From: Hoeflea prorocentri
Lineage (GTDB): Bacteria; Pseudomonadota; Alphaproteobacteria; Rhizobiales; Rhizobiaceae
Length of the DNA: 64,000 nt
Direction: 5' to 3'
NCBI RefSeq assembly: GCF_027944115.1
Contig: NZ_JAPJZI010000001.1
Coordinates: 4,154,001-4,218,000, forward strand
The notes beneath the pieces are model-generated. The model ran no database searches. It was not told where the DNA came from and saw only the letters and a list, made by a program, of their open reading frames with translations. This document shows positions 15,318 to 49,811 of this stretch, piece after piece; the first letter of the stretch is position 1, and every line of letters begins with the position of its first letter. Made by a program: the position numbers and the translations under genes.

Positions 15318-16739
15318 TCAGGTCTTGAGCATGCGCTCCAACGCGACGTAGTCCGTCTTGGACCGGTGCCGTCTGTCGAGCGGGATATTTCGCACATGCC
15401 GCACGCTCGCAACGCCGAGTGAGCCTGCCGCATCACTCCACTCAGCAAGCCGGGAGGCGTCACCGGCCACGGCCAGGACAGGTTCGCCGTCGATCTCTGC
15501 CAGCGCGGATCGTCCGACGCCCGGCCAGAACCGGGCTGCCGTCTCAACCGCAAAAGGATCGATACCGTCAATCCTTGCCTTAGTGCGACCGAGCAGCCAA
15601 AGCCGCCCGCTGTCGTCAAGGCGGGCGGCGTCGCCGGTCCGGTGGAAGATGCGGCCGTTGCGGCTGACCTTTGTTTCCGCATCGTGCGCGGGGTCGAGAT
15701 AGGCCTCGTTCACATGCGGGCCGGCAACAAGAATTTCTCCGTCTTCCAAAAGGATATCCACGGGACCAACCGGCGTTCCCGCCAACAATCCGGAACCCGT
15801 TTTCATCAACTCGAGATCGGCCTGATCAACATGCTCATAGTCCAGGTGGGCAATCGGCTCGGCTTCGGTCGATCCATAAACGGCGACCATGCGCATATCC
15901 GGCTGCAGCCTGTTCAGCCGCCGCATCGTATCGGGAAACACCGGCCCTCCGCCCGTGAGGATCGCATTCAGCGGCGGGAGACGGTCGGCATGGCTCAGGG
16001 TTTCACATATGACAGGCGGCACCAGCAGCCGCGTTACCCTGAAGGTTTCAATCTGCCTGTGAATCCGCTCCGCAGCCGCCTTGTCGTGACGGGATATTTT
16101 CCACGACGGAAGAACGGACGTGACACCCAAAGACAGGCAGACAAGAACAAACACCGGAAAGGCAACGAGATCGCGCTCCTCCCCGCTGCCCGAGTCAAGC
16201 AGCGGGCTGATGGCATCGTTTTGCGCCATCATGAATGCATGGCTGCGCGCGATGGCCTTCGGCGCACCGGTCGAACCGCTGGTAAAGGAGATCAGCGCCG
16301 TATCCTCGGTTAAAACGGTCGCCGGCGGCAAGGTTTCAGGACCGCCCTCCTGGGGGCTCAACCGGAGCTGGAGCCGACGCAGTTCCGGAACGAGCAGCCC
16401 CAGCCAACGGTACCAGCCCGATGCAAGGAATGCTTTCGGTTGCGTTGCACGGGCCGCATGCCTGAGACCTGCCAGCCCCATCGCAGGCTCCGGAAACACA
16501 ACCGTTGCGCCGATCTGCCAAAGGCCGGCGAGACATGCATAAAGATCGATGCCGACGGGCATGGCCATCAAGACGCGGTCGCCGCGGCCGATGCCGCGTG
16601 CGGCAAAACCTGCGGCAAGGGCGCGGGCACGGCGGTCAAGCGCATCATAGGTAACCGAGCGGCCGCCACCCTCGATGATGGCGGGGCGCGAACCGTGGCG
16701 TTCAACCGCCTTGGCGAATGCGTCGAGGATCGTGGTCAA
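15318..16739 (-). CDS. AMP-forming acyl-CoA synthetase/ligase family protein
   Basis: Last gene of the seven-gene isoprenoid-like cluster. The 473-residue ANL-superfamily enzyme has the P-loop TSGSTGAPK (153-161), the adenine motif VYGSTEAEPIAHL, the hinge region HRTGDAARLDDSG...LGRTKARI, and a C-terminal catalytic Lys candidate in SKTDYV (~461). It would activate a carboxylate as the adenylate, then pass it to CoA or another acceptor. It is shorter than typical acyl-CoA ligases (500-550), and the TEAEPIA motif recalls OleC-like beta-lactone synthetases, so the product may not be a CoA ester. Its ATG overlaps the GNAT stop by 4 bases. Confidence 0.85.
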   Translation of the reverse strand: MTTILDAFAKAVERHGSRPAIIEGGGRSVTYDALDRRARALAAGFAARGIGRGDRVLMAMPVGIDLYACLAGLWQIGATVVFPEPAMGLAGLRHAARATQPKAFLASGWYRWLGLLVPELRRLQLRLSPQEGGPETLPPATVLTEDTALISFTSGSTGAPKAIARSHAFMMAQNDAISPLLDSGSGEERDLVAFPVFVLVCLSLGVTSVLPSWKISRHDKAAAERIHRQIETFRVTRLLVPPVICETLSHADRLPPLNAILTGGGPVFPDTMRRLNRLQPDMRMVAVYGSTEAEPIAHLDYEHVDQADLELMKTGSGLLAGTPVGPVDILLEDGEILVAGPHVNEAYLDPAHDAETKVSRNGRIFHRTGDAARLDDSGRLWLLGRTKARIDGIDPFAVETAARFWPGVGRSALAEIDGEPVLAVAGDASRLAEWSDAAGSLGVASVRHVRNIPLDRRHRSKTDYVALERMLKT

Positions 16740-17590
16740 AGTACGCGCCCGAAGAGCGTATAGCGGCGAAACACCTCGGCGCCATGCATGCGGCTGCGCT
16801 CACGTGAGACATTGTCCGCGTGCATCAGCGCGTGAATGACGGTGTCAAAGCCGGTTTCAAGAGCCTTGCGGTGAAACGCGTCCGCCAGAAGATGTCCGAC
16901 ACCGCGCTGGCCGCTGGCATAGGTCTTCAAAATCGCGGTCTTTGTATCGGGACCCTGTGAGTAGTCGGGAATGCCAAACAGGAAACCGGCCAGCCGGTTG
17001 CCGGGCGCACGGGCAAAGAAGATCAACTCACGCCTGAGAAACGGAACATAGGGCATATAGAGGCCGAGGAAGGCTTCACGCGTAATCGGCTTGTAGTATG
17101 CATTGGCGGCAAAACCCGAAACCGAAAAATCATAGACCTCGCCGAAGAATGCTTCGGGGCTCTCACCGTCCCAGTTCACGACATCGATCCCGTCTGGATT
17201 TTCGGGTTCTGTGCCAATTGCATTTTTTGTCGCGACACGCATGGAAACATAGTGATCGATCTGGTCAAAGCCGGCCTCTCCAAGGGCCGCGACATCGTGA
17301 TCCCCGCTTGTCGGTTCCATGAGGAAGGCGGGCGAACCGTCGCTTTCCGTCACCGCCCGGTAGCTGTGCCAGGTATCGCCCTCCATCGGACCCAAGAGCG
17401 CTTCAAAGCCCTCGGCTCTCAAAGTTGCGGCGGCGAGAAGAAAAAGCTCTACGCCGTCCGCAACGGAGCCGATCTTCAGCTTCCCCAGAGCCGCCGTGCG
17501 TTTATTGTCCCAGGACGGCGCATCACGGTAGATGGACAGGCTGGAGCCGCCATGAGAAAGGGGCTGAACTGAGGTTTCCGACACGGTCAC
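16736..17590 (-). CDS. GNAT-family acyltransferase
   Basis: The 284-residue protein has a divergent N-terminal half. The C-terminal GNAT core includes TYASGQRGVGHLLADAFHRK, where the R/Q-x-x-G-x-G/A acyl-CoA loop is recognisable as QRGVGHL, then ALMHADNVSRERSRMHGAEVFRRY, the usual last helix-strand. The start is GTG 17590, which overlaps the upstream stop as GTGA (17590-17587); an AGGAAAG lies just before it. The longer upstream frame is antisense to the membrane-protein gene and can be ignored. The acyl donor could come from the adjacent AMP ligase. Confidence 0.78.
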   Translation of the reverse strand: MTVSETSVQPLSHGGSSLSIYRDAPSWDNKRTAALGKLKIGSVADGVELFLLAAATLRAEGFEALLGPMEGDTWHSYRAVTESDGSPAFLMEPTSGDHDVAALGEAGFDQIDHYVSMRVATKNAIGTEPENPDGIDVVNWDGESPEAFFGEVYDFSVSGFAANAYYKPITREAFLGLYMPYVPFLRRELIFFARAPGNRLAGFLFGIPDYSQGPDTKTAILKTYASGQRGVGHLLADAFHRKALETGFDTVIHALMHADNVSRERSRMHGAEVFRRYTLFGRVL

Positions 17591-18927
17591 AAGCTTTCCT
17601 GCGTGAACAAAAGATAGAGATAAGCAACGAGCGGCACAAAGACGCTTACCACACCGGCTTTTGCATATCTGTTGTGGTGGAAGAATCCCGGCCGCAGCAA
17701 ACCCGCCAGCGCCGGCACCACCAGGCTGACCACGACGATCGCCACAGTATTTCCATGCCACCGGGTGTCGGCGGGATTGATCGCAATGACACCGGATACA
17801 ATCACCCCAAGCAACAGGACCAGCAGCGCGGTCAGCGAGACCCGCTGCCAGAACGGCCGCTCGGCAAGCGCAAGCGGTCCAAGAAGCGCGACCATGGCGC
17901 CGCAGGTCGTTCCGTAAAAGGAAATGGCTACATGTCCGAGCGCGACGCCACAGATCAGCCAGCCGAAGGACACAACCGCCAGCATGGCAAGCATATCAAG
18001 ATCGGGGTGGCGGGCATCGCCGGGATATTGCCGACGCGCATAGGTCTGCGTCAGCAGGGCCGATGCCGGCAATATCATGTTGGGCAGCGTGGTGACGGCG
18101 CCAATGAGAAACAGGGCCGCGGTATAGGCGCGCGCGGTGTGTTTCGACAGGCCAAGCAGCGCCCCGCCATAAACATTGAGCAGGCACAGCACGGCAAGAA
18201 AACCGAGCGCCAGAAGGATGAGGTCGACCGGACCGCTGTCCATGTGAACGGCGACCAGAAACAACACGCCGACGGGGACGAAGTAATTGTCGAAGCCGCG
18301 CCAGCTGTCGGCCTCGATGACGGTGCCGAATGCAGCGATCATGACCGACAGCATGACGACGCTGACGCGGGGAACGTCGGAGAGAAGGAGCAGGGCAATC
18401 ATGGCCAGTATCCATGTGACCATGAAAAAGACCAGCGAACCCTCAATGCTCTTCTGACCATCCTCAATCGTATAGACAAGCCGGCCATAGCCGGACCCGG
18501 CAACGGCGGCGGCCGCGTCGGACAGGGTCAGCACGGCAAGCGGCAGCAGGTAGAGAACGGCAACGCTTCCGTTTCCGGAGAAGAAATAGAGCGTGCCGAC
18601 CGCCGCCACCAGCATGACATCGCCCCAGGAGCTGCGCTCGACCCCGTGCAGCGCAGACCCGATGCCCCCCTTCGCAAGTGCCGGAATACGCAACACGCCC
18701 ATGACGATGACGGCGAGGACAAGAAGGCTGTAGACCATCCACGGTTCCGGAAGGATCCAAGGCAGCGACATGGCGTAAAGACCCGTCGCCACATGAACCG
18801 CCTTGCGCTGGATTTCCGCACTCCAGCCATAGCGGCGTGCGGCGATCCGCACGATGCCCATAACGACCACGAGCAACATCACCGACAAAGGGATGAGCGC
18901 AATCGCGATGGCCGGGTGCAGCGTCAC
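17587..18927 (-). CDS. Phytol/dolichol-kinase-like (VTE5/SEC59 family) multi-pass membrane protein with extra C-terminal membrane domain
   Basis: The 446-residue protein has about twelve hydrophobic segments. The N-terminal ~210 residues carry the polyprenol-kinase/CDP-diacylglycerol-synthase-like landmarks: QRKAVHVATG (41-49), LSDAAAAVAGSGYG (135-148) and GQKSIEGS (157-164). These match phytol and dolichol kinases, which use CTP to phosphorylate a prenyl alcohol. The C-terminal ~230 residues are a further membrane domain I do not recognise (FYGTTCGAMVALLGPLALAE). Known VTE5-type kinases are 220-300 residues, so this is a fusion or an extended family. It overlaps neighbours by 4 bases on both sides. 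Confidence 0.7.
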   Translation of the reverse strand: MTLHPAIAIALIPLSVMLLVVVMGIVRIAARRYGWSAEIQRKAVHVATGLYAMSLPWILPEPWMVYSLLVLAVIVMGVLRIPALAKGGIGSALHGVERSSWGDVMLVAAVGTLYFFSGNGSVAVLYLLPLAVLTLSDAAAAVAGSGYGRLVYTIEDGQKSIEGSLVFFMVTWILAMIALLLLSDVPRVSVVMLSVMIAAFGTVIEADSWRGFDNYFVPVGVLFLVAVHMDSGPVDLILLALGFLAVLCLLNVYGGALLGLSKHTARAYTAALFLIGAVTTLPNMILPASALLTQTYARRQYPGDARHPDLDMLAMLAVVSFGWLICGVALGHVAISFYGTTCGAMVALLGPLALAERPFWQRVSLTALLVLLLGVIVSGVIAINPADTRWHGNTVAIVVVSLVVPALAGLLRPGFFHHNRYAKAGVVSVFVPLVAYLYLLFTQESL

Positions 18928-20021
18928 GGCGCGACATCCTCAACAACGAAGTCGGAATAGAAAAACGCCTTGTCGACGGCTTTGCCGTCGCGCTCTATCT
19001 CGGCGCGTGTGATCACCCGATCGCGAAACGCCTGCGGCACGCGTCGCGGCGCCATCATGTTCCAGTAGACGATCCGGGCACCGGCATTCGACGCATCAAG
19101 CACCGATCCGTAGACCTCGGCAAAAACCTCAGGCGACATGTATTCGAAAATGTCCGAGAGGTTGAACCCGTCTGCCTTCTCGCCGGTGGAAACGAAGGCT
19201 TCCAGCGATCCCGGGCGGATTTCAATGCGCTCCAGCCGCTCGCGGATCGTCTCGAAGTTTTCCGCGCGCCATGCCATCGGCAGGTGCTCGCCGTGGCGGG
19301 CATGCATGATCCAGTAGAGATAGGGATTGACCGACGGGTCGCAATCGACAGCCGCGTGGCGAATGCGCCTTTGCACATGTGCGGCGACAGACCCCTCAAC
19401 ATGATCGAAGAAGGCCTTGTCCCGGCCCAGCCGGCCCATGGCATAACGGGAGAAGAACAGCGACATCATCAGTTTCCATCGCCAGTTGTTCCAGCGCCTG
19501 TCGACAAATTCCTCACGCGCCGCCCGGTCCCGCGGCTGGAAAATCGCATCAATCGTGGCTCTGGAATGCACCAGCGGCAAAACGCGGTTCTTGAACAGCC
19601 GGAAATAGCGTTCGAACTTCCCGCAGCCGCCAGCGCCGTAGGCCACCACATCCGCCTCGCGCGCCTTCCAGAAGGCAAGTGTCGCCTCGCCGGCTTCTGC
19701 AAGCGCCTTGGTCAAAAGCTCCGAGCGACGGTCCGAGGGCCGCGAACCCATCAGCTCGACAAAGCTCTGGTGATCGAGGTTGCGATAGGCGCCGATACGC
19801 AGGTTCAGACACTCGATCTGGGCCTGGGACAGATCGACGACTACGATACGTGCGGGGTCCAGCATCAGCATCGCCAGCGCATTGTCACCGGCCGAACAGA
19901 TGGATACCAACGTTGCGCCGGGCTTTGTTGCCAGCGCATCCGTCAGGACGTCAGCATCCTCCCAGAGCTGGGCATAGCGGATATCGTCGAAATCGGCGTG
20001 GGCAGCGATCTGTGAGGTCAT
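18924..20021 (-). CDS. BtaA-like (DUF3419) S-adenosylmethionine 3-amino-3-carboxypropyl transferase family protein
   Basis: The 365-residue protein has the DUF3419 hallmarks: RYAQLWED (15-22), SICSAGDNAL as the SAM-binding loop (40-49), VVDLSQAQ (61-68), GCGKFERYFRLF, NPYLYWIMHARHGEHLP and FNLSDIFEYM. BtaA moves the aminocarboxypropyl group of SAM to diacylglycerol in betaine-lipid synthesis. The N-methylating partner BtaB is absent here, and the neighbours are prenyl enzymes, so the acceptor may be a different lipid. It overlaps the dikinase stop and the kinase-like gene start by 4 bases each. Confidence 0.78.
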   Translation of the reverse strand: MTSQIAAHADFDDIRYAQLWEDADVLTDALATKPGATLVSICSAGDNALAMLMLDPARIVVVDLSQAQIECLNLRIGAYRNLDHQSFVELMGSRPSDRRSELLTKALAEAGEATLAFWKAREADVVAYGAGGCGKFERYFRLFKNRVLPLVHSRATIDAIFQPRDRAAREEFVDRRWNNWRWKLMMSLFFSRYAMGRLGRDKAFFDHVEGSVAAHVQRRIRHAAVDCDPSVNPYLYWIMHARHGEHLPMAWRAENFETIRERLERIEIRPGSLEAFVSTGEKADGFNLSDIFEYMSPEVFAEVYGSVLDASNAGARIVYWNMMAPRRVPQAFRDRVITRAEIERDGKAVDKAFFYSDFVVEDVAP

Positions 20022-22501
20022 GCTTCTACCCTCGTCACGTCACCGCTCGCGCCATCTACGGTGATGGTTTCCCCGTCGCGTATCCAGGCAGTCGCGCCTT
20101 TGAGCGCCACCACGCAAGGGATACCCATTTCCCGAGCAACGATGGCCGAGTGGGAGAGCAGGCTGCCGCGTTCGACAACAATGGCCGATGCGTTTGAGAA
20201 AACGGCGATCCATCCCGGATCGGTGTGACGGGCAACAAGGATATCCCCGCGGTCAAGGCTCTGGGTTGCCGGATCACTGATCACCCTTGCCCTGGCCGTC
20301 ACCGTTCCGGCTGAGCAAGCGGTTCCCGTGCGTTGCCGTTCGCTATCATCACCGGCCGTATCCGCACCGCTATCCGTCCGGGTGAGAACATTGATCACCG
20401 GGCCGCGCACGGTAAGCCGTTCGGGCGGATCCTGCCTTGCTGCACTTGCCTCAAGCTCGGCGCGCCGAAGATCCACAAGAGGCCGCAGGTTTTGCGTGGA
20501 CGCATGGCCCTCTATCGCTCCAAGCACTTCCTCAACGGTGAGAAAGAATATGTCGCGCGGATTTTCCAGATGACCGAGCGCCTGGAACTCACGCCCCATG
20601 GCCAGAAACACCTTGCGGGCCCTGCCGAAAATGCGAGTCCGCTCAAAACGCAGGTTTTCGCGGTCGCGCACCCTTGCCTTGGCCCAGCCGACCAGTATGC
20701 GTGCAATAGCGCGGCGCACCGGTTTGCCTTTTGCTATTTCCGCAAAGCCGGACGCCGGCGGCGGCGATGCGGGCCCTGTGCTTTCAGAGCGCCGTGACGA
20801 AGCGGCAACCGCTGCCAACAGAGCGGAGGGATCCTCGTCCAGCGTCACGCTTTCAAGCTTGAGTTCTTCGGTGCATCGGTCGCCGAAGCGATCGATATAG
20901 GCGTCGAATTCCTCACGCAACGCCCCGTGACCGGCCAGCGCCTCGACGCCCTTCGCATCGATCTCATCGGCCAGTCCGGCGGCAGAAGCCACCAACTGAC
21001 CCATCCGGGCGATACGTTTTGCAGGTTCCGCGGAGATGATGTCCCCCTGCCCGATCATGACATGGTTGTGCAGCTCCAGGCCCGCGGGACCGAACCAGCG
21101 CTCCATCAGCTTGCGCGACGCCCCGAAGGCGATCATGCAGAGGAAATCATTGACGATCGGTGCGTCCCAGCGGTCAAGCAGCGAGGCTTCAATGCGCCGG
21201 TATTCAGCCGCCAGTTCACTTGAGGCAGCGGCATTGACATCAAGCGATGCCGGACCAAGCGACGCGTTGAGCCGTGACTGAAAATCACGGATCATTCCGG
21301 GCAGGCGAAATGCCTGGATGACCAACCCCGCCCCCGCCCGGCCCATGCGCAGATATTCCCGCCACCGGGCGAGGCCCGTCAGCGGCCCCGGACCCAATGT
21401 CGCCGTTACGGATGCGGGCAGCGGTTCGGAAACGCCCATCATGGTTTCCATATGCGCACGATTGACAGCAAAGCCGGGCAGCAGCGCCAGCGCCCGGTAC
21501 CAGTTGACGAGATTGTAGTAGACCCGGCCGTCAACGCGGCCGAGAAGATTGTCAAAAACGGGCGCATTGGCTCCGATGATATTTTCGCGCACACCGACCA
21601 TGCGCACAAACGCCCGGTAAACCCGTGCGTAGGCGTAACAGGCGAAAGAGTAGGTCAATGGCGTGACCAGACCCGGATAGCTTTCGACAATGTTGGAGTT
21701 GTCGAAAATCGTTACCTGATCGTCCAGCATTGCCTCAGCGTGCAACCCGGTTGTGATCGGCCGGGCCTGCAGGATATGCAGAACGCCATCCGACAAGGCC
21801 CATTCGATGTCCTGCGGCGCGCCGAAGGCCGCTTCAACCTGTTTCGCCAGGCGGGCGACGTCACCGGCCTGGGTCCGTGTGAGGACCGGCTCGCCGTCCG
21901 GTTCGGTCGTGATTGCCTCCTGGATTGCATCAAAAACCCAGGTCTCGCCGTCTTCCTCTCCGGAAACCAGCCGATCGCCGAGGCCAGCGATTGCGGAAAT
22001 CACCACGTGATGACGCAACCCGCTGACTGGATCGGCGGAGAATGCGACACCGGCCGCATCCGCCTTGATCATCTTTTGCACGACCACGGCGGGCGCCGGA
22101 TCCTGCTCATCCAGCCCGTGTGTCTCGCGGTAGGCGGTTACGCTGCCCTGACTGCCCGAGAGCCAGACCTTGTGCGCGGCGTCGGTTACCATGTCAGCAG
22201 AGACATTCAACAGGCTGAGGAACTGTCCGGCATGGGAATGATCCGCTCCGTCCTCCTGTGCTCCGGACGAGCGAACGGCGAACGGCCCTTCCCCGAGTTG
22301 GGACAGCGATGCGGCAACGCCCTTCTTATGGTCCGGTTTCAGGCCGGTCTTGTTGAAGGCTCCCGGAAGAACAACAAAAAAGGCGGGCGGGTTAAAGCCG
22401 GCGGATGCGAGCCGCGCCAACGCCCGCGCCTTGCCGCCAGCGGCTTCCTGCTGCGAGGCTGACGAAGAGCTTAGAACCATGATGTCGGATCTTGCATTCA
22501 T
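20018..22501 (-). CDS. PEP-synthase/rifampin-phosphotransferase-like dikinase without PEP-binding barrel
   Basis: The 827-residue enzyme has an N-terminal ATP-grasp domain: GGKARALARL (22-31), FAVRSSG (74-80), GVAFSADP (151-158), DIEWALSDG (231-239) and QARPIT (245-250). A ~430-residue central region of unknown kind follows. The C-terminal phosphohistidine swivelling domain has GSLLSHSAIVAREMGIP, with His ~784 as the phosphoryl carrier, and the protein ends there. The PEP/pyruvate TIM barrel of PpsA/PPDK is missing. This ATP-substrate-His order is that of rifampin phosphotransferase, so the middle part probably binds the group being phosphorylated. It sits between ubiA-like and btaA-like genes, overlapping both by 4 bases. 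Confidence 0.8.
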   Translation of the reverse strand: MNARSDIMVLSSSSASQQEAAGGKARALARLASAGFNPPAFFVVLPGAFNKTGLKPDHKKGVAASLSQLGEGPFAVRSSGAQEDGADHSHAGQFLSLLNVSADMVTDAAHKVWLSGSQGSVTAYRETHGLDEQDPAPAVVVQKMIKADAAGVAFSADPVSGLRHHVVISAIAGLGDRLVSGEEDGETWVFDAIQEAITTEPDGEPVLTRTQAGDVARLAKQVEAAFGAPQDIEWALSDGVLHILQARPITTGLHAEAMLDDQVTIFDNSNIVESYPGLVTPLTYSFACYAYARVYRAFVRMVGVRENIIGANAPVFDNLLGRVDGRVYYNLVNWYRALALLPGFAVNRAHMETMMGVSEPLPASVTATLGPGPLTGLARWREYLRMGRAGAGLVIQAFRLPGMIRDFQSRLNASLGPASLDVNAAASSELAAEYRRIEASLLDRWDAPIVNDFLCMIAFGASRKLMERWFGPAGLELHNHVMIGQGDIISAEPAKRIARMGQLVASAAGLADEIDAKGVEALAGHGALREEFDAYIDRFGDRCTEELKLESVTLDEDPSALLAAVAASSRRSESTGPASPPPASGFAEIAKGKPVRRAIARILVGWAKARVRDRENLRFERTRIFGRARKVFLAMGREFQALGHLENPRDIFFLTVEEVLGAIEGHASTQNLRPLVDLRRAELEASAARQDPPERLTVRGPVINVLTRTDSGADTAGDDSERQRTGTACSAGTVTARARVISDPATQSLDRGDILVARHTDPGWIAVFSNASAIVVERGSLLSHSAIVAREMGIPCVVALKGATAWIRDGETITVDGASGDVTRVEA

Positions 22502-23442
22502 GACAGCACCTTTGCGGCAAGCGGACTGAAACCCGCTGCGCTATAGCAGACAAAGACCCACAGGCCGGACACGGTATCGAGTTTCGCCTGGTGTTTGCCA
22601 TCGGGGGCGTTTCGCATGGCAAAGGCAACGGTCCATGCCCAGACAAGCATTGCAAGACCCGGAATGGCTGTCGCGACGACATGACCCGTCGCAAAGCCGA
22701 CACCGACAAGCAGGACAAAGGAGAACCCGGTTATGGCGATCCATACAGTGACCGCGCGGCGAACGCCCCAGAGATTTGAATAAGTCTCGACACCCTCGCG
22801 CTCATTTTCCGGCGCCCATGTCTTGCGGCCTATCTCAAGAACGCAGCCATTGACGAAGGAAAGGAGCAGGAACAAAAACAGTGCAGCGGCAGGGCCGCCG
22901 CCCGCCGGCAGCCATTCAACACCTGTGACGAACAGATCAAGCAGCGGCATGATCGCCATGTGGGACACAAGATAAAGGATCGGCCGCGCCTTCAGCCAAT
23001 CCGGCACAAAGAACTCCACCGTCATCAAGGCCAGCCAGACCCAAACGAGTGCCAACAGCACAATCAGCGGCGGGAAATACAACCAGGCAACAAAAACCGC
23101 GACCGGAACAAGGGCCGCGCCTATGGTCAAAATGAGCCTGAGGCTGACCAGGCCGCGCGGGATGGGCCGTTCAGGCCGGAAGCGCTGGTCATCGGGACCA
23201 TCCTTGTATTCGTCGCACGCCCGCAACTGCATGAAAACGATGAGGGAGATTGCAAAGGCTGTCGCATAGGCGGCCCAATGGGGAAAAGGCCGGCCGGCAA
23301 GGAGAGCGGACACGTTGACACTGGCGGCGCTGAACACGGCGAGCAGGACCGCCGTTTTGAACAGCGGGATGCGCTCGCGCTGATAGATCCAGAGCCTCCG
23401 GAGAAGCGGCAATTGGCTTTCTGCCGTATCCTGCATCTGCAC
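22498..23442 (-). CDS. UbiA-family prenyltransferase
   Basis: The 314-residue membrane protein has about eight to nine hydrophobic helices. The two Asp-rich diphosphate/Mg sites of the UbiA superfamily are present in modified form: RACDEYKDGPDDQRF (74-88) and LEIGRKTWAPENEREGVETY (202-221), where Glu replaces some Asp. It should transfer a prenyl group from a prenyl diphosphate to an acceptor in the membrane. The acceptor is unknown; the second site differs from menaquinone and heme-O type enzymes. The start is GTG 23442, overlapping the HMG-CoA reductase stop (TAGTG); an ATG two codons later is possible. Confidence 0.82.
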   Translation of the reverse strand: MQMQDTAESQLPLLRRLWIYQRERIPLFKTAVLLAVFSAASVNVSALLAGRPFPHWAAYATAFAISLIVFMQLRACDEYKDGPDDQRFRPERPIPRGLVSLRLILTIGAALVPVAVFVAWLYFPPLIVLLALVWVWLALMTVEFFVPDWLKARPILYLVSHMAIMPLLDLFVTGVEWLPAGGGPAAALFLFLLLSFVNGCVLEIGRKTWAPENEREGVETYSNLWGVRRAVTVWIAITGFSFVLLVGVGFATGHVVATAIPGLAMLVWAWTVAFAMRNAPDGKHQAKLDTVSGLWVFVCYSAAGFSPLAAKVLS

Positions 23443-24713
23443 TATCGATGCCTCGCATAACGCTCATGGGCACGCACGAAATCGCCGGCGGCCATCGCTG
23501 CGACAATCGAGATCTCTCCGCAAAGGCAAAGCGCGGCCGCAACTTCGGCCAAGGCTGGCCGCTTCCCGCTGCCCCGCAATCCAAGTATGCGCAAACCGGC
23601 AGACTGGCTCGGAAGTCCTGTCCCGCCGCCGACCGTGCCCACCAGAAGATTGGGGAGCGTCACCGAGACCATCAGATCCCCGTCGCAATCTTCCATGCGG
23701 GTAAACCCAACCGCCGATTCGGCGACGCATGCAGCGTCCTGACCGGTAGCGATGAAAAGTGCGGCAAGAGCGTTGGCATAATGGGCCTGTGCACCAAGCT
23801 GACCGGAGAGCAGCGAGCCGAGATTTGCGACCCGGCCATATTCAAGCATTTCATCAACAGTGCAGCGCAGCTTGCGGCGCACAATATCAGCCGGAATCGT
23901 GGCACTCGCCGTCACCTTGGCACCGCGCCCGGTCAACAAACCCAGAAACGAGCCTTTCTTGTCACCGGAATAGTTGCCCTCCACATACCAGGCGCGTGGC
24001 TTGACCGGTGCGTTTGCCACAATGTATTCGCACATCGCACTTGTCGCGATGGTGACCATATTCTGGCCGGAGGCATCCCCGGTCATGAAACGGCAGCGCA
24101 GGAAGCAGATCTCATTGTCCATTGCCGGTTCAAGGGAAACGAGCTTGCCATGGCGTGTCGTGGCTTCTGCTGCCGCCTTGAGGGCTTCGGCACTTTGAAC
24201 GACCCAGTTGAGGAACACGCCTGTTTCGGCAGCCGAGCCAAATTTGAACGCCGGCGTGCGCAGCACCCCGTCATAGGTCAGGGCGGCGGATATGCCACCG
24301 GCGGCCGCCGTCACGTCCGCGCCGCGCCCGTAGGATGCGACGAGCGCCGCTTCGCTTGTCGCCAGCGGCACCAGAAAATCACCCTGCGCATGAATTCCAT
24401 TAACGCGAAGCGGGCCGACAATGCCCACCGGAACCTTCACCGTGCCGATCATGTTCTCGATATTGGCATCATAGGCCGGCAGGTCCGCCACCGTTTGCGG
24501 ATCCAGGATCATTTCGCTGTCGGCCTTATTCGCATCGGTATCGGCCAGTATACGCTCCCAGAAACGCCGCGCGCTTTGCTCGCTGGCCCGGCGTGCCGGG
24601 CGCAGGCGCCGAACTTCGCGCTTACTTGCCATGAGAGCCCGGTTTATGGCGTTTTCATCAAAACGCTCCCGCAACCGTGTCAGCAACTCACTGATATGAA
24701 ATGGGACGATCAA
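23442..24713 (-). CDS. Hydroxymethylglutaryl-CoA reductase (class I-like)
   Basis: The 423-residue enzyme reduces HMG-CoA to mevalonate. Motifs: ENMIGTVKVPVGIVGPL (86-102), the catalytic Glu in LATSEAALVASYGRG (E121), GDASGQNM (212-219), catalytic Lys in SGDKKGSF (K252/253), catalytic Asp in TGQDAAC (D326), cofactor-site GTVGGGTGLPSQ (359-370) and a likely catalytic His in VRAHERYARHR (H416). The pattern follows class I (NADPH) enzymes more than class II. Several family residues differ (QDAACVAES instead of QDPAQNVES). The start is TTG 24713 with GGAGG at 24721-24725 and 7-base spacing. No other mevalonate-pathway gene is in the window. First gene of the seven-gene cluster. Confidence 0.88.
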   Translation of the reverse strand: MIVPFHISELLTRLRERFDENAINRALMASKREVRRLRPARRASEQSARRFWERILADTDANKADSEMILDPQTVADLPAYDANIENMIGTVKVPVGIVGPLRVNGIHAQGDFLVPLATSEAALVASYGRGADVTAAAGGISAALTYDGVLRTPAFKFGSAAETGVFLNWVVQSAEALKAAAEATTRHGKLVSLEPAMDNEICFLRCRFMTGDASGQNMVTIATSAMCEYIVANAPVKPRAWYVEGNYSGDKKGSFLGLLTGRGAKVTASATIPADIVRRKLRCTVDEMLEYGRVANLGSLLSGQLGAQAHYANALAALFIATGQDAACVAESAVGFTRMEDCDGDLMVSVTLPNLLVGTVGGGTGLPSQSAGLRILGLRGSGKRPALAEVAAALCLCGEISIVAAMAAGDFVRAHERYARHR

Positions 24714-24998: not shown

Positions 24999-25982
24999 CT
25001 AGATGTTGTTCCTCAGTCGTTCTTTCATACGACTGTGGGCTTCCTTCGAACCGTCATGGAAAGTGCCGAACCACTTATCAAGCGGAATAAGGCCGTCCCC
25101 GTAATTCACCTCGAAGAAGCGATGATGGAGATAGTGAATATAGGCATGGGGGTCCATCGATCGGTTCTCGCCCAATTCAACCCGGTGAAAGCCGACATGC
25201 CCCGGGATCGCACCGAAGCCCGCGACGTGCAGCTGATAGATCGCTATCAGCGGATGGGAGGGCAGAATCAGGTGATAGAATATTGTTGCAAAATACAACA
25301 GGTGCTCCACCGGATGCATGGCCAAGGAGGACCACGGGCTCGGATTGACCGATTTGTGGTGAACCGAATGAACCCACTTGTACAGGAAGCGTGTGTGGAT
25401 CAACCGGTGAATGCAATAGAAATGAAACTCGTGGATCACCGGTACAATCAAGCATAGGCACGCAAATATGAGCCAGTTTTGTCCGGGGTCGATCAACCTT
25501 CCCCAGCCATTGGCGAAGCCGTACAGAACCAAAATCTGCAGGAGCGTCCATATGGGCACACCCGAGAGGAGTGTACGAAGCACATTTTCCGTGTTTTGCG
25601 ATTCGAACCAGAAGCGCTTCGACGGCGTATCGGAGGGAAATCTGCTGTTGTATTTGAACCGCGTGCCTTGCGCGCGTTGAATGTAGAGCCTCAATTCGAA
25701 GACAAAATACCAGGCAAGGACAGCCAGCACATTGATGATGAACAGGCGCCCCGTCCAGTTCCATGACAAGCTGCGCATGTCTTCCAGCGGCGGCACGACC
25801 CAGACCCACCACAATATGGCCGATACAAAGAAAATCACGTTATAGGGCAGGAAGTAACTCGGCAGCCATTTCAACAACTGCACAGGTCTTGGCGGAAACA
25901 CGAAGAGAGGGGCCGTCGCCGCCGGCTGCTTCGGGGTCCAGTTCCCTCGTTCGTCGCGGGCGCCATACTCAAGATCGTCCAT
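24999..25982 (-). CDS. Sterol desaturase / fatty acid hydroxylase family protein
   Basis: The 327-residue integral-membrane di-iron enzyme has about four to five membrane helices. The His clusters of the superfamily are HEFHFYCIHRLIH (HxxxH type), HSVHHKS (HxxHH) and HYLHHRFFEVNYG (HxxHH) near the C-terminus. Members hydroxylate or desaturate sterols, carotenoids or acyl chains with O2. It is on the same strand as the isoprenoid-like cluster but 285 bases upstream of it, so it may or may not belong to that pathway. Confidence 0.85.
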   Translation of the reverse strand: MDDLEYGARDERGNWTPKQPAATAPLFVFPPRPVQLLKWLPSYFLPYNVIFFVSAILWWVWVVPPLEDMRSLSWNWTGRLFIINVLAVLAWYFVFELRLYIQRAQGTRFKYNSRFPSDTPSKRFWFESQNTENVLRTLLSGVPIWTLLQILVLYGFANGWGRLIDPGQNWLIFACLCLIVPVIHEFHFYCIHRLIHTRFLYKWVHSVHHKSVNPSPWSSLAMHPVEHLLYFATIFYHLILPSHPLIAIYQLHVAGFGAIPGHVGFHRVELGENRSMDPHAYIHYLHHRFFEVNYGDGLIPLDKWFGTFHDGSKEAHSRMKERLRNNI

Positions 25983-34520: not shown

Positions 34521-35459
34521 TTAATCTGTGAACTCATACTCATATTCTTCGTAATAGCAGAATTCGTCGCGACATTCGTCCATGTCTTCCGGAATCTGAT
34601 TGTCGAACAGCTCGTCGTCGAACAGATCGTTCAGCGGCGGGAAGTCGCCGCCCGGAAGGTTGAATGAGTCCTGACCCGACAGGCCTTCGCCGGTTTCCGT
34701 ATCGCCCCGGAAGGCGGGGCCGTTCGGCAAGGTGCGCAGGTAGAAATCGAAATATTCCAGGATCGCATCGGTGATCTTGATCGGGCCGATCGGCGCCTGT
34801 CCGGGGCCCGGAACGAAGACGGCGTAGTTCGGCGAGGAAATGGTCTTGGTGCCGGCGCCATTGCCGACCCGGATGATGCCGTTATTGGACAGCGAATTGG
34901 TGCCGCGGCCCGGGCCACGCAGAACCACGAGAAGCGCCTTTCCCGAATCGGCACTGTCGGTTGAAAATCCGAGGAGTTTCGCGAGCTTGATCGCATCCTC
35001 GCCGACGACGCCTTCGAACATCGTGCCGCGAATGCCGATCGTTGCCGACGGCGTTTCAATATTGGCCTTGGTGGGATTGGCCTTGCCGATCCGTCCACTC
35101 ATGAAACGGAATGCGCCTTTGAGGACCTTTCCGCTCATCTCGCCGGCCTTTTGATCCGGATCGTAGACAAACCGGTCGATGATCATCTCGCAGTTCTCAC
35201 CAATGGTGAAAACCGATTCGTCCAGCAACAGGATCTGCAGGGCGCTTTGCTGTTTGGTCAGAACCTCGTCCTGCAGCAGGATGCTTTCATCGACACTGGC
35301 CCGGCGCTGGTCGGCGGCCGCGCCACTCCTGACGAACACTTTGCCCCGGATGGCGGCGCTGACGCCAATCTTGGCTTCAGCATAGGCGTCGGCGGTCCAA
35401 AGCAGCGGTCCGGCCATCAAAGCGGCAAGGCTCATTGTCATCAATTTGCGGGCATTCAT
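34521..35459 (-). CDS. FecR-domain exported protein with acidic C-terminal tail
   Basis: The 312-residue protein has a Sec signal peptide (LMTMSLAALMAGPLLWTADAYA). A FecR domain follows (about residues 40-140: VFVRSGAAADQRRASV, LQDEVLTKQQSALQILLLDE, ATIGIRGTMFEG), of the kind found in surface and periplasmic signalling proteins. The last ~35 residues are very acidic, with Tyr and two Cys (ECRDEFCYYEEYEYEF). ATG 35459 is preceded by GGAG. It is the second gene of a - strand pair with the beta-barrel gene, divergent from the CHASE2 cyclase. Confidence 0.85.
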   Translation of the reverse strand: MNARKLMTMSLAALMAGPLLWTADAYAEAKIGVSAAIRGKVFVRSGAAADQRRASVDESILLQDEVLTKQQSALQILLLDESVFTIGENCEMIIDRFVYDPDQKAGEMSGKVLKGAFRFMSGRIGKANPTKANIETPSATIGIRGTMFEGVVGEDAIKLAKLLGFSTDSADSGKALLVVLRGPGRGTNSLSNNGIIRVGNGAGTKTISSPNYAVFVPGPGQAPIGPIKITDAILEYFDFYLRTLPNGPAFRGDTETGEGLSGQDSFNLPGGDFPPLNDLFDDELFDNQIPEDMDECRDEFCYYEEYEYEFTD

Positions 35460-35515
35460 GGGATTGCTCCGTCTCGGTTTGTTCGCCCCGGTCATATCAG
35501 GCGGCCTTAGCCGCT

Positions 35516-36817
35516 CTAATTTGCGAACCGCTTGATCAGCATAATGTCGGCGGACACGCTGTCGGCGTCAAAATTCGGTATATTGGAGTTCTGGTTCAGG
35601 TAGTTCACGCCGACCTGCAGATTGACATTGGAAGTCACTTCGGAGCCGGTGATGTTCACCTTTTCCAGGAGCAGGTCCAGCGGCGCGCCATAGGCCAGCC
35701 GTGTCTTGAACCGCCTGTCCTCGCGTGTCACCGTTGCCGAATAGTTCGGATCGGGTTGCTCATAATCCTGCCAGCGATAGGAGGCGGATGCGAGGACGTA
35801 TTGGCCCTGTCCGATCAGTACAAGCGCGTTTGCGGCGATTTCCAGCGCATCGTAGCTGTAGCTGTCGTTGCGGGCGTCCTTGAAGGAGCCGCTGACGCGT
35901 GCCGTAAACCTGCTTTTTTCGGTGGGACGAACGGTGACACCGCCTGTGGCTCTCGCCAACCAGCCGTTGCGGGCGCTCCCGACCGAATCGGTCGAGACAA
36001 TCTGGTAGTTCTGGAACACGCCCTTGCCGCCGGCAAAAACGGTCAGCTGCGGGTTGATAGCATATTTTGCCGTTGCGCCGCCGCCATTATCGTTGCGGTA
36101 ATTCTGGCCGTCGAGCCACAGCGTATCGACCGTGCCGTAGGGCGTGATCTGCAAGTCTTCGAAGAAGAAGGTCGCACCGGCCTTCACACCGCCGGTGATG
36201 TAGTCGGCTTCGTCGACCTTGAACTGCTCGTTGAGATCGGTCGCACCCTGAACAAAGAGGAAGTTTCCGCCGCCGCCGGGGATATCATGTTCGATCCGCG
36301 CCGTGGCCCCCGCCTGGAACGCCCCGTCGACCCTTTTGTCGGTATCGAGCGGATTGCCGTTCAGGTCGTTATCGGAATTGGTTGTCAGGTCCGGATTGCT
36401 GTCGACACGCAGGCCGGTCGCAATGCGTCCGGTCAGGCGTGTCGCTTTGGACTGCGCGGTTGCCAGCGCCAGATACCTGTTGACCTCACGGCTTTGCGAC
36501 GGGCTGAGCGGCCGATCCGACAGGATCGTCAGCTCCCGCTTCGCGCCGGCCATGTCATCCAGCCGATAAAGGACCAGCGCATAAAACAGACGCGCGGAGT
36601 CCCAATTGGGCTGAAGCAGCAATAGCCGTTCCAGCGCCGCAGAGGCCTGCTCGAGATCGCCCTTTATCACCTGCTGTTGCGCATAGAGATAATTGAGCTC
36701 AAGATCGTCGGGATTGGCGAGAATCTGATCATACGTCACGTCATCCGCAGCCGCTGTCGTAGCGGTTGCGATCAACAAGACCGTAGACAAAACAAAATTC
36801 TTCAATAGTTTCAGCAT
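35516..36817 (-). CDS. Outer-membrane beta-barrel protein with N-terminal TPR region (surface lipoprotein assembly modifier-like)
   Basis: The 433-residue protein has a signal peptide (FVLSTVLLIATATTAAA). Two to three TPR-like helix pairs follow (LELNYLYAQQQVIKGDLEQA, LERLLLLQPNWDSARLFYAL). A C-terminal ~280 residues of alternating amphipathic strands end in MLIKRFAN, with a terminal Phe-X-Asn as in outer-membrane barrels. It resembles the DUF560/Slam layout. ATG 36817 is my choice; 36832 or 36853 would add residues ahead of the signal peptide. It is 56 bases from the FecR gene. Confidence 0.75.
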   Translation of the reverse strand: MLKLLKNFVLSTVLLIATATTAAADDVTYDQILANPDDLELNYLYAQQQVIKGDLEQASAALERLLLLQPNWDSARLFYALVLYRLDDMAGAKRELTILSDRPLSPSQSREVNRYLALATAQSKATRLTGRIATGLRVDSNPDLTTNSDNDLNGNPLDTDKRVDGAFQAGATARIEHDIPGGGGNFLFVQGATDLNEQFKVDEADYITGGVKAGATFFFEDLQITPYGTVDTLWLDGQNYRNDNGGGATAKYAINPQLTVFAGGKGVFQNYQIVSTDSVGSARNGWLARATGGVTVRPTEKSRFTARVSGSFKDARNDSYSYDALEIAANALVLIGQGQYVLASASYRWQDYEQPDPNYSATVTREDRRFKTRLAYGAPLDLLLEKVNITGSEVTSNVNLQVGVNYLNQNSNIPNFDADSVSADIMLIKRFAN

Positions 36818-36849
36818 GTCCCCACTCAACATGCGCCTGGTGAAGAAAT

Positions 36850-36879
36850 ACATTAGGACAGTTTTAATGCATTTGTAAA
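36850..36879 (-). promoter_or_regulatory. Candidate promoter of the beta-barrel/FecR pair
   Basis: On the - strand, TTTACA (36879-36874) and TAATGT (36855-36850) are spaced 18 bases apart, in the AT-rich divergent region between the beta-barrel gene and the cyclase gene. The match is moderate. The surrounding ~120 bases are clearly more AT-rich than the genes. Confidence 0.35.
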
Positions 36880-36939
36880 TGAATTGCTTGTTTCATTCGT
36901 TTAAATTCTTTTGCGGCAAATATAATCAAGAGGCAAAAC

Positions 36940-39153
36940 TTGTATTTCTGGAAAAGCCGCTCCCCAACATTGATGGCTGCCTATGCCGGCTTGATGTCCC
37001 TCATTATACTGTTTGCCGCAGCATCTTTCGGTGCTCCGCTCTTCGACCGGCTGTCGTCGCTTGTATTTGACGAGTACCAGCGGATCAACCCGCGCGAACC
37101 GGCCGGCGCTCCGCTGTTAATCGTTGATATTGATGAGAAATCACTGGACGAGCTCGGACAGTGGCCCTGGCCGAGATCACAGATCGCGCTTCTGGTCGAG
37201 CGGCTCGGAGAGCTGGGCGCGGCGGTGATTGCCTTCGATATCGCCTTTGCCGAGGCGGACAGAACATCCCTTCAGCAGACGCTGGACGAACTGCGGGCTG
37301 CGGGCGCGGATATCGCCTTTCCCGAGGGTGTTCCCGAACTTGACAATGATGCTGTGTTTGCCAGGACACTGGCGGCCAATCCGACGGTGACAGGCCTTGC
37401 GCTGACCAATGAGCTCGAATCAGAATTGCCGGGACCGAAGGCCGGTTTCGCCTTCGCGGGCCGGGACCCAACGGAAATCCTGCCGTCCTATCGCGGCGGG
37501 CTTCATAACCTGACCATTTTTGACGAAGCGGCACTTGGGCTCGGCTTTTTCAGTTTTCCGCCCGCCGTCGACGGTATTGTCCGCAAGGTTCCTCTGGTCG
37601 CCTCGGCCCATGGCAAACTCTATCCCTCCCTCGGCATGGAAGCACTGCGCGTTGCCCAGCAGGCGTCGAATTTTGTCGTCGTCAGCACGGGAGCCAGCGG
37701 CGAGGCGGAAGCCGGCGCACCGGCCATCGTCAGCGTACGCACCGGTGCGTTCGACGCGCCGACCGACGGGGCCGGTCAGCTTTGGCTCTACTATTCCGGC
37801 AAGGTCGCAGACAATACGATGTCGGCGAGTGAAATCCTCGGCAAAGCTCCCGACCTGCCAGCGCTCGAAGGGCGTATTGCAGGGCATATCGTGCTCATCG
37901 GCACCAGTGCCGTCGGGCTGCGCGACCTTGTGGTCACGCCGCTCGGTTCCGGCGTTCCGGGCGTTTCCGTCCATGCCGAGCTTATCGATCAGGTCCTGTC
38001 CAGGACCTTCCTGAGCCGGCCGGATTACATGCCGGGGCTTGAATATTTTCTCGCCATTTCCGTGGCCGCGCTGCTCATTTTCACCATTCGCCCGGGCCGT
38101 CCGTTCATGGGCGCATCCGTTGCAACACTTCTTTTCGTCTCGGTCTTCGGCCTGTCCTGGTATCTGTTTTCAGAACGGCATGTGCTGCTTGATCCGCTTT
38201 TGCCGTCGCTGGCGACGGTGCTTGTTTTTGTTGCCGTGACAATCGCTCAATATCTGACCAGCGAGCGCGAAAAGCGCTTCATTCGCAGCGCTTTCGGACG
38301 GTATCTGTCACCGGCCATGGTGAGCAGGCTGTCCGTCGATCCGAAATCGTTGAAGCTGGGCGGTGAGTTGAAGGAACTGACCCTGCTCTTTTGCGATATT
38401 CGCGGTTTTACTTCTCTTTCGGAAAATCTCGATCCGGAAGGCCTCACACGTCTGCTCAACGAATTCCTGACGCCGATGACCGACGAACTGCTCCAGTCCG
38501 GCGCAACAATCGACAAATATATGGGCGATGCCATCATGGCGTTCTGGAACGCGCCGCTTGAAGTGCCCGATCACCGGGCTGCCGCGCGCGGCGCGGCTCT
38601 CGGAATGATACGCCGGCTCAGTGAACTCAACAAGGAATCGCAAGCCGAAATCCGCATCGGTATAGGCCTTAACACGGGCCCCTGCTGCGTCGGCAATCTC
38701 GGTTCGTCTCAGCGTTTCAACTATTCCGCAATCGGTGATGCCGTCAACGTTGCGGCGCGGATAGAAAGCATCACAAAAAGCTACGGGCTTTCCGTTCTCC
38801 TGGCCGAGTCGGTGCTCGACACGGTCAGCACAGAAGACAATGGACAGGTTCTTTTCGAGGTCGACAGCGTCCAGGTTGTCGGCCGCGACGAACCGCTGGT
38901 TCTCTACACCGTGTTTGAGGAGGCCGAGCTTGATGGCATGAGCCGGCTCGAACTTGAGCGTGCGCAGAGTGCATTTCTGACCAGTTACCGGTCGGGCGAT
39001 TTCGAATCAGCCTTCGTACAGGCAAAGTCTCTTGAGGAATCGGCGCCGCAGGTGCTGCGCCAACTCTACGGGGTTTACATGACGCGACTGTCTGAATTCG
39101 TTACGTCACCGCCATCAAACTGGACCGGCGTCTTCCGGTTCGACCAGAAGTAA
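36940..39153 (+). CDS. CHASE2-domain adenylate cyclase (class III)
   Basis: The 737-residue protein has one N-terminal helix, a periplasmic CHASE2 sensor (about 35-345: LLIVDIDEKSLDELGQWPWP, IAFDIAFAE, LIGTSAVGLRDLVVTPLG), three membrane helices (~367-440) and a cytoplasmic class III cyclase domain. The cyclase has both metal Asp residues (LLFCDIRGFTSL at ~482 and YMGDAIMAFW at ~526), the adenine-selecting Lys (IDKYMGD), AIGDAVN and the transition-state Asn/Arg (NVAARIE). All catalytic residues look intact, so it should make cAMP. The TTG start at 36940 follows AAGAGG at 36928-36933; the next ATG (36973) would cut the first helix. Confidence 0.9.
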   Translation: MYFWKSRSPTLMAAYAGLMSLIILFAAASFGAPLFDRLSSLVFDEYQRINPREPAGAPLLIVDIDEKSLDELGQWPWPRSQIALLVERLGELGAAVIAFDIAFAEADRTSLQQTLDELRAAGADIAFPEGVPELDNDAVFARTLAANPTVTGLALTNELESELPGPKAGFAFAGRDPTEILPSYRGGLHNLTIFDEAALGLGFFSFPPAVDGIVRKVPLVASAHGKLYPSLGMEALRVAQQASNFVVVSTGASGEAEAGAPAIVSVRTGAFDAPTDGAGQLWLYYSGKVADNTMSASEILGKAPDLPALEGRIAGHIVLIGTSAVGLRDLVVTPLGSGVPGVSVHAELIDQVLSRTFLSRPDYMPGLEYFLAISVAALLIFTIRPGRPFMGASVATLLFVSVFGLSWYLFSERHVLLDPLLPSLATVLVFVAVTIAQYLTSEREKRFIRSAFGRYLSPAMVSRLSVDPKSLKLGGELKELTLLFCDIRGFTSLSENLDPEGLTRLLNEFLTPMTDELLQSGATIDKYMGDAIMAFWNAPLEVPDHRAAARGAALGMIRRLSELNKESQAEIRIGIGLNTGPCCVGNLGSSQRFNYSAIGDAVNVAARIESITKSYGLSVLLAESVLDTVSTEDNGQVLFEVDSVQVVGRDEPLVLYTVFEEAELDGMSRLELERAQSAFLTSYRSGDFESAFVQAKSLEESAPQVLRQLYGVYMTRLSEFVTSPPSNWTGVFRFDQK

Positions 39154-46321: not shown

Positions 46322-46424
46322 ATACTAATGTTCATTACCAGCACTTTGTCAAGCTATATTAACCAATACACACTTTGATGATTGAACATATGGATTGACT
46401 TTGTTGCAAAAGTTCTCAAACTAT
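46322..46424. promoter_or_regulatory. Divergent control region with two candidate promoters and TGTTCA/TGAACA half-sites
   Basis: The - strand promoter candidate is TTGACA (46352-46347) and TAGTAT (46327-46322), spacer 19. The + strand candidate is TTGACT (46395-46400) and AACTAT (46419-46424), spacer 18. Between and beside them lie ATGTTCAT (46328-46335, inside the - strand spacer) and TGAACAT (46383-46389, just upstream of the + strand -35), an inverted pair. The local sequence is AT-rich. The SorC-family regulator encoded at 51192 is the natural candidate to bind here. The rest of 46165-46447 holds no gene. Confidence 0.45.
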
Positions 46425-46447
46425 GGACATCCCATGGAGGAGAATTT

Positions 46448-47770: not shown

Positions 47771-47783
47771 CGGATATGGGCGC

Positions 47784-49810: not shown

Positions 49811-49811
49811 T

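Follow-up and report, generated by a model that had tools for sequence, protein, structure and literature searches.

What is made by the seven genes that lie end to end at positions 15318-24713 of a 64,000-nucleotide stretch of the Hoeflea prorocentri genome? This stretch (contig NZ_JAPJZI010000001.1, positions 4,154,001 to 4,218,000), called the window below, belongs to a genome of 5.04 Mb in two contigs. The genes encode a homologue of 3-hydroxy-3-methylglutaryl-coenzyme A (HMG-CoA) reductase (HMGR), a UbiA-family prenyltransferase, a dikinase related to Rph and phosphoenolpyruvate (PEP) synthase, a DUF3419 protein related to BtaA, a membrane protein, a tandem GNAT acyltransferase and an AMP-forming ligase. 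Our reading, to which a probability of roughly 0.4 is given, is that they form a biosynthetic operon of seven enzymes, horizontally mobile and probably with translational coupling, that makes an isoprenoid-bearing aminolipid. We infer every substrate, the order of the steps and the product from the chemistry of the protein families.

The enzyme set is apparently undescribed. We know of no other case of this combination of enzyme families, which are themselves recognisable except for that of the membrane protein. The preliminary description of the locus, made from its sequence, knew no pathway with this set of enzymes, and no description of the gene set or of parts of it was found in the open-licence literature of PubMed Central (PMC), a scope that leaves out most subscription work. 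The eLife lipocone paper (PMC12419801), in its accessible part, treats other operons.

Conservation and spread of the seven-gene operon

All seven open reading frames (ORFs) run in one direction on the minus strand, with no gaps between neighbours. As read from the sequence, the HMGR and UbiA genes share a 1-base overlap (TAGTG) and the other five junctions are 4-base overlaps, in order ATGA, ATGA, GTGA, GTGA and TTGA, in agreement with the overlaps of 1-4 bases first reported. The GNAT gene probably starts at the GTG at 17590 and not at the listed ORF start at 17761, because in the longer ORF homology begins only from residue 66. Pfam matches above cut-off were obtained for 5 of the 7 proteins (HMGR, UbiA, dikinase, DUF3419 and ligase). 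A scan for terminators gave 22 terminator-like sites, most of them within genes, compared with 10.9 in shuffled sequences; no sigma-70 promoter-like sites were found in the scan, compared with 2.6 in the shuffles. These sites are not used as evidence here.

Related loci were taken as the best 80 of at least 507 DUF3419 relatives, from a DUF3419 alignment against named prokaryote genomes. The complete seven-gene set exists in 75 of these 80 loci, to which the window is additional. In the five incomplete loci (L027, L077, L087, L092 and L094) no more than 222 bases separate the first gene found from the start of the contig, and L092 also has its last gene stopping at the contig end; because these genes sit at contig edges, the missing genes would be off the contig. 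For the genes present, order and strand are identical in 80 of 80 loci. Junctions of no more than 10 bases, or overlapping, were counted for the six gene pairs in order as 75/75, 74/76, 79/80, 79/80, 71/72 and 75/78. The start codon closest to the stop before it was picked each time, a choice that biases these counts towards overlaps. The spacing is exactly -4 in 56 of 75 relatives between HMGR and UbiA, and in 68 of 80 between the BtaA-like gene and the membrane protein gene.

Presence and absence also agree when genes of the operon are looked for separately. In the family to which Roseovarius nubinhibens belongs, 149 genomes were searched; 12 have the DUF3419 orthologue and 11 the UbiA orthologue, all within those 12. 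In the single genome with DUF3419 only, the gene is 220 bases from the contig start, which would place its upstream neighbours beyond the contig. HMGR matches occur in 13 of the 149, comprising the same 11 carriers of UbiA and DUF3419 and two genomes with other HMGRs (43% and 37% identity). At E <= 1e-20, HMGR was found in 3 of 199 genomes of the window's order, its own genome counted, and DUF3419 in 8 of 398 genomes sampled from the phylum, namely the own genome and seven with 28-30% identity. The rare co-occurrence in relatives that the preliminary description had considered as evidence against a single unit is therefore not seen, given the 75 complete loci, the invariant order and the matching presence and absence in the 149 genomes.

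Distance matrices and a concatenated tree were built from the 55 operons with all seven proteins full-length, the window's included. The 21 pairwise correlations among the seven matrices range from 0.84 to 0.95; a permutation control on the HMGR-ligase pair (200 permutations) gave correlations of no more than 0.19. The earlier statement that the seven enzymes must act together was too strong when drawn from overlaps alone; this co-inheritance lends it support. In the tree, two Halomonas loci stand beside two Chelativorans loci with full support, and this grouping suggests that the operon was transferred whole between classes, into Halomonas. Carriers among the related loci include Rhodobacterales, Hyphomicrobiales, Dongia, Sphingomonadales and Halomonas, and the distribution is patchy, as the 12 of 149 genomes in one family illustrate. 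On a 137-kb plasmid of Roseinatronobacter, six operon genes are annotated, from UbiA to the ligase; HMGR would cross the start of the record and is absent from its annotation table, and the membrane protein and the GNAT are labelled "hypothetical protein" by NCBI. No relatives of the dikinase or of the DUF3419 protein were found in a viral collection.

Residue conservation was read from alignments of length-filtered, full-length members, with 61 to 81 sequences per family, the window's included; truncated, frame-broken or missing ones are left out. The active-site check covered HMGR, UbiA, the dikinase, the membrane protein and the ligase, and the active-site residues of these operon enzymes are, as aligned, near invariant.

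Table 1. The seven genes of the operon, with positions in the window
Gene product	Positions	Strand	Remarks
HMGR homologue (class I-like)	23442..24713	-	423 aa, TTG start, GGAGG upstream
UbiA-family membrane prenyltransferase	22498..23442	-	314 aa; PF01040 and Asp-rich motif
Rph/PEP-synthase-like dikinase or phosphotransferase	20018..22501	-	827 aa; PF01326 and PF00391
BtaA-like (DUF3419) putative 3-amino-3-carboxypropyl transferase	18924..20021	-	365 aa; PF11899
Membrane protein, prenol-kinase-like first half	17587..18927	-	446 aa; motif and topology
Tandem GNAT N-acyltransferase	16736..17590	-	284 aa; fold match
AMP-forming acyl/aryl ligase (ANL superfamily)	15318..16739	-	473 aa; PF00501

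The reductase homologue and the mevalonate pathway

The HMGR homologue is recognised by PF00368 (355 bits, cut-off 27), and its best solved relative is 6hr7. The catalytic residues E121, K252, D326 and H416 are retained in 73 of 73 operon HMGRs, the window's included. The mevalonate pathway was looked for in 19 operon genomes, the own genome and 18 from among the 80 loci. HMG-CoA synthase (PF01154) and the diphosphomevalonate decarboxylase domain MDD_C (PF18376) were found in none of the 19, and mevalonate kinase (TIGR00549) was over its cut-off in none, with one short sub-threshold match; IspH, an enzyme of the methylerythritol phosphate pathway, was found in all 19. Because the mevalonate partners are missing and IspH is present throughout, the operon HMGR does not supply isoprenoid precursors in the tested genomes. 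The first interpretation of HMGR as the source of the prenyl chain was therefore given up. For the same reason it is extremely improbable that the operon serves to raise isoprenoid supply through mevalonate for an ordinary prenylated quinone or a similar product, a use to which the position of HMGR beside UbiA would otherwise be suited.

If not mevalonate for isoprenoids, what could the enzyme reduce? Two pocket positions, given in human numbering through alignment to human 2q1l, have changed in 73 of 73 operon HMGRs: Ser684 is replaced by E245 and Lys735 by A296. In human and plant HMGRs, Lys735 and Ser684 contact the HMG moiety, and Lys735 forms a salt bridge with the HMG carboxylate, according to the accessible portion of PMC9500038. 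For comparison, a sample of 349 genomes of the phylum gave 28 other HMGR matches, of which 27 were compared after L121, on a short contig, was left out. Sixteen of the 27 are class I-like, with 35-56% identity (loci L098-L110, L122, L123 and L125), and only two of these retain both Lys735 and Ser684. The other 14 also lack Lys735 (A, S, T or N instead) and have D, E, A or S at 684. Loss of Lys735 need not signal a new substrate, since it is common to 14 of the 16. Eight neighbourhoods of non-operon HMGRs, including three of the seven closest (L104-L110), were compared by blastp with the remaining six genes of the operon; the only match was a 68-residue ligase-type one in a single neighbourhood. 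As far as the alignments indicate, this branch of orphan-looking proteobacterial HMGRs either uses another thioester or else binds the carboxylate differently.

The retained catalytic residues are also compatible with mevalonate as an end in itself. The fungal fusarinine branch (HMGR, SidI, SidF) presumably joins HMGR, an AMP-forming ligase and an acyltransferase for acylation, with hydroxyornithine as acceptor and SidF as transferase. In a route of this kind, HMGR would make mevalonate from the HMG-CoA of leucine breakdown, the ligase would form mevalonyl-CoA and the GNAT would mevalonylate the amine of an aminocarboxypropyl lipid. The trio is similar; SidI is a mevalonyl-CoA ligase and SidH a mevalonyl-CoA hydratase in the available part of PMC3709128. 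HMG-CoA lyase is above cut-off in 14 of 19 operon genomes, so HMG-CoA may be present in them. However, the HMG-contacting Lys735 and Ser684 (PMC9500038, accessible portion) are replaced in every operon HMGR, and 5 of the 19 genomes lack an HMG-CoA lyase above cut-off. The window's genome is one of the five, with 241.6 bits against a cut-off of 246; the lyase model has sub-threshold matches in all 14 control genomes too, which makes the weaker matches uninformative. Unlike the fungal branch, the operon has no hydroxyornithine or peptide synthetase genes, adds UbiA, the dikinase, the BtaA-like protein and the prenol-kinase-like protein, and encodes an HMGR with an altered pocket. We regard this route as unlikely.

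Proposed prenyl transfer, phosphorylation and head group

The UbiA protein matches PF01040 with 47.1 bits (cut-off 34.2). Its Asp-rich motif D77-E78-x-x-D81-x-x-x-D85, with these residues in 75 of 75 sequences, is taken to be the prenyl-diphosphate motif, reading DExxDxxxD compared with the usual NDxxDxxxD. It scores below the cut-off for a UbiA of the EboC type, from the ebo cluster (NF035940, 29.8 bits against 250).

The dikinase consists of an ATP-binding domain, a middle domain of its own and a swivelling His domain (H784). The ATP-site residues K24, R77, E233, Q245 and R247 are found in 76 of 76 sequences and the phospho-His H784 in 75 of 76. Its best solved relative, 5fbs, is filed as a PEP synthase and is, we believe, a rifampin phosphotransferase. 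The rifampin phosphotransferase, PigC and RedH dikinases likewise build on a specific middle domain, with ATP-binding and swivelling His domains on either side, and 5fbs is the closest solved structure. Unlike them, the operon dikinase sits in an operon of isoprenoid-lipid type. It matches 28 NCBIfam models, and in the 25 of them that were listed its score is under the cut-off. Distant relatives of the dikinase were seen on Streptomyces plasmids (L137 and L138, about 32% identity), near genes for AfsA-type hotdog and isoprenylcysteine methyltransferase-like proteins, and on one haloarchaeal plasmid (29%). These were dropped as clues to function, as their gene contexts differ from the operon.

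In the model of the membrane protein, predicted with a local distance difference score (pLDDT) of 92.6, residues 5-228 contain eight helices of at least 15 residues, and a second helical half comes after them. R41-K42-x-x-H45 lies in the first half, with R41 in 79 of 79 sequences and K42 and H45 each in 78. Additionally, D137, K159, E162-G163, E205 and D213-N214, which we take to be typical of dolichol and phytol kinases, are conserved in 78 or 79 of 79. The model of the Plasmodium prenol kinase PfPolK has eight transmembrane helices and, at its putative pocket for CTP, a "charged clamp" of the form Arg-Lys-x-x-His, as stated in the accessible part of PMC10849223. At the level of motifs, and in its predicted topology, the first half thus resembles prenol, phytol and dolichol kinases. 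A fusion of VTE5 and VTE6 was rejected as a reading of the whole protein, since none of 50 members matches DUF92, presumably the VTE6 family. The operon resembles prenol salvage and tocopherol-phylloquinone prenylation (VTE5, VTE6 and a UbiA-type enzyme) in combining a prenol-kinase-like RKxxH protein with UbiA; it differs in having an Rph-like dikinase in place of a DUF92 protein, and also HMGR, the BtaA-like protein, the GNAT and the ligase.

The BtaA-like protein matches PF11899 (DUF3419) with 196 bits against a cut-off of 28.2, and the role of this family is presumably the transfer of aminocarboxypropyl from S-adenosylmethionine (SAM). Such a protein links the operon to the BtaA/BtaB synthesis of the betaine lipid diacylglyceryltrimethylhomoserine (DGTS). 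In contrast to that pathway, the operon protein shares just 28-30% identity with the other DUF3419 proteins compared, and no BtaB is among the seven: in a Pfam search of the operon, none of the seven proteins matched a methyltransferase family such as a BtaB-type N-methyltransferase would give. We know of none of the other six operon enzymes in the BtaA/BtaB pathway. The GNAT model (pLDDT 91.9) matches 249 solved chains at E <= 0.001, with tandem GNATs at the top, including MAB_4324 and the mycothiol synthase MshD; its Pfam support is weak (PF00583 in 9 of 41 homologues). The ligase matches PF00501 with 149 bits, and its nearest models are PRK09274 and OleC-type (NF006754 with 252 bits, under the cut-off of 478). 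Lys461, which we take to be the C-terminal "A10" lysine, is found in 77 of 77 ligases. An analogy of the GNAT and the ligase with bacterial ceramide synthase received no support from a literature search and was not kept.

In the pathway proposed here, the ligase would activate a carboxylic acid, and the HMGR homologue would turn a CoA thioester into a primary alcohol, a four-electron reduction that would take place outside the mevalonate pathway and perhaps not on HMG-CoA. The prenol-kinase-like protein and the Rph-like dikinase would phosphorylate an alcohol to an activated (di)phosphate, possibly the diphosphate needed by UbiA; Rph itself presumably phosphorylates an alcohol. Within the membrane, UbiA would transfer the activated isoprenoid to an acceptor. 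The BtaA-like enzyme would add a SAM-derived 3-amino-3-carboxypropyl group, and the tandem GNAT, with the ligase, would N-acylate the free amine. N-acylation is suggested because BtaB is not among the seven, with an acyltransferase and a ligase in its place. A membrane (isoprenoid) lipid is favoured as product because UbiA, the BtaA-like enzyme and the prenol-kinase-like protein all point there. What remains of the preliminary reading of the product is a single seven-enzyme unit with, probably, a prenylated or isoprenoid amphiphile as its product; the manufacture of the prenyl chain by HMGR does not.

A different use of the ligase, the reductase and the two phosphorylating enzymes, as one chain, would be the salvage of isoprenoid acids. 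The ligase would activate such an acid, HMGR would reduce it to the prenol, the kinase and the dikinase would yield the diphosphate for UbiA, and the BtaA-like enzyme and the GNAT would build the acceptor. Two independent kinases are the consensus logic of prenol salvage in the available text of PMC9782597. We consider salvage decidedly unlikely, as the acidic E245 in the reductase pocket would be odd for a greasy substrate.

Several observations weigh against the aminolipid reading. Ranking loci by DUF3419 similarity, and keeping the best 80 of at least 507, favours true operon members. The BtaA-like protein is so distant from the seven other DUF3419 proteins of the 398-genome sample (28-30% identity) that aminocarboxypropyl transfer to a lipid hydroxyl remains putative. 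The Rph, RedH and PigC models all match the dikinase below cut-off, and the substrates of this family are varied. The membrane protein has no useful match in Pfam or NCBIfam (50 members), and a fold search with Foldseek gave nothing at E <= 0.001. Its VIA-align Z scores are no higher than 7.5 (membrane pyrophosphatases), with about 6 for MraY, within the range expected of a common arrangement of helical bundles; a new fold is not proposed. The original naming of this protein as a VTE5/SEC59-like kinase therefore holds for motif and topology, and lacks a useful family match and a convincing fold match. Finally, Lys735 is absent also from 14 of the 16 class I-like proteobacterial HMGRs outside the operon, and its loss need not point to a new substrate.

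A more specific form of the aminolipid reading, tentative and rather doubtful as a whole, is that the product would represent a new class of bacterial membrane lipid, with an isoprenoid and an N-acylated aminocarboxypropyl (homoserine-type) head group. It would come from a portable operon in which an enzyme of the HMGR fold has taken on, away from the mevalonate pathway, the four-electron reduction of a different acyl-CoA, and in which the dikinase and the prenol-kinase-like protein replace the usual supply of prenyl diphosphate.

Neighbouring genes and significance

Beyond the seven genes, no flanking gene is constant across the loci. The survey of the flanks took in 82 loci, two duplicated contigs among them, and relied on a crude ORF caller, which picked up 14 of the 16 sulfotransferases that tblastn later revealed. 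Of 80 loci, 24 have a cytochrome P450 match nearby. A Sulfotransfer_3 protein lies near 16 of 80, with an adjoining P450 every time (tblastn). In 15 of the 16 loci this pair lies upstream, ahead of HMGR, and is divergent (L018, L019, L025, L026, L028, L031-L033, L038, L043, L050, L064, L076, L079 and L090); in one (L051) it is downstream of the ligase. Thirteen of the 16 pair-bearing loci are in the tree, where they are spread over several branches. Six further loci have a second type of P450, in line directly upstream of HMGR in four and downstream in two; of the remaining two P450 matches, one (L044) is a fragment and the other (L052) is distant. Judged by these families, the P450 and the sulfotransferase plausibly provide optional tailoring by oxidation and sulfation. 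In a minority of loci they would further modify the product, giving an oxidised and sulfated variant.

A gene of the FA_hydroxylase family (sterol desaturase type) lies directly upstream of the operon in the window (24999-25982). It was rejected as an eighth member, since a search of the 80 loci gave a homologue in just 1, where about 4 kb separate it from the operon. Elsewhere in the window, a FecR protein gene and a CHASE2-guanylate/adenylate cyclase gene surround an ORF of 445 amino acids without a Pfam match (34521-39153). At 46382-51110, an ORF for a DRL-type oxidoreductase is followed by plus-strand ORFs up to a 2-oxoacid dehydrogenase E2 gene, possibly one catabolic operon.

The flanks also bear on whether the product stays in the membrane. 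A small diffusible natural product, such as a signal, a siderophore-like compound or an antimetabolite, would suit the patchy distribution and probable transfer of the operon, the sulfotransferase and P450 neighbours at some loci and the presence of at least six of its genes on a plasmid in one strain. However, two of the operon enzymes are multi-helix membrane proteins, and no recurrent exporter, receptor or regulator was found in the flanks, apart from generic-looking ATPases of ATP-binding cassette transporters in 16 of 82 loci. A diffusible product is considered quite unlikely, and the isoprenoid-bearing aminolipid is retained as the preferred reading.

The carriers are scattered marine and soil bacteria that share an invariant operon for which no described product was found. 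The operon offers a test case for whether HMGR homologues have a role beyond the mevalonate pathway. The same question is raised by the orphan-looking proteobacterial HMGRs outside the operon, the function of which seems worth a separate study. The product may be a new class of lipid in marine bacteria, and it could turn this variant of a UbiA-centred isoprenoid and aminolipid pathway into something categorically new.

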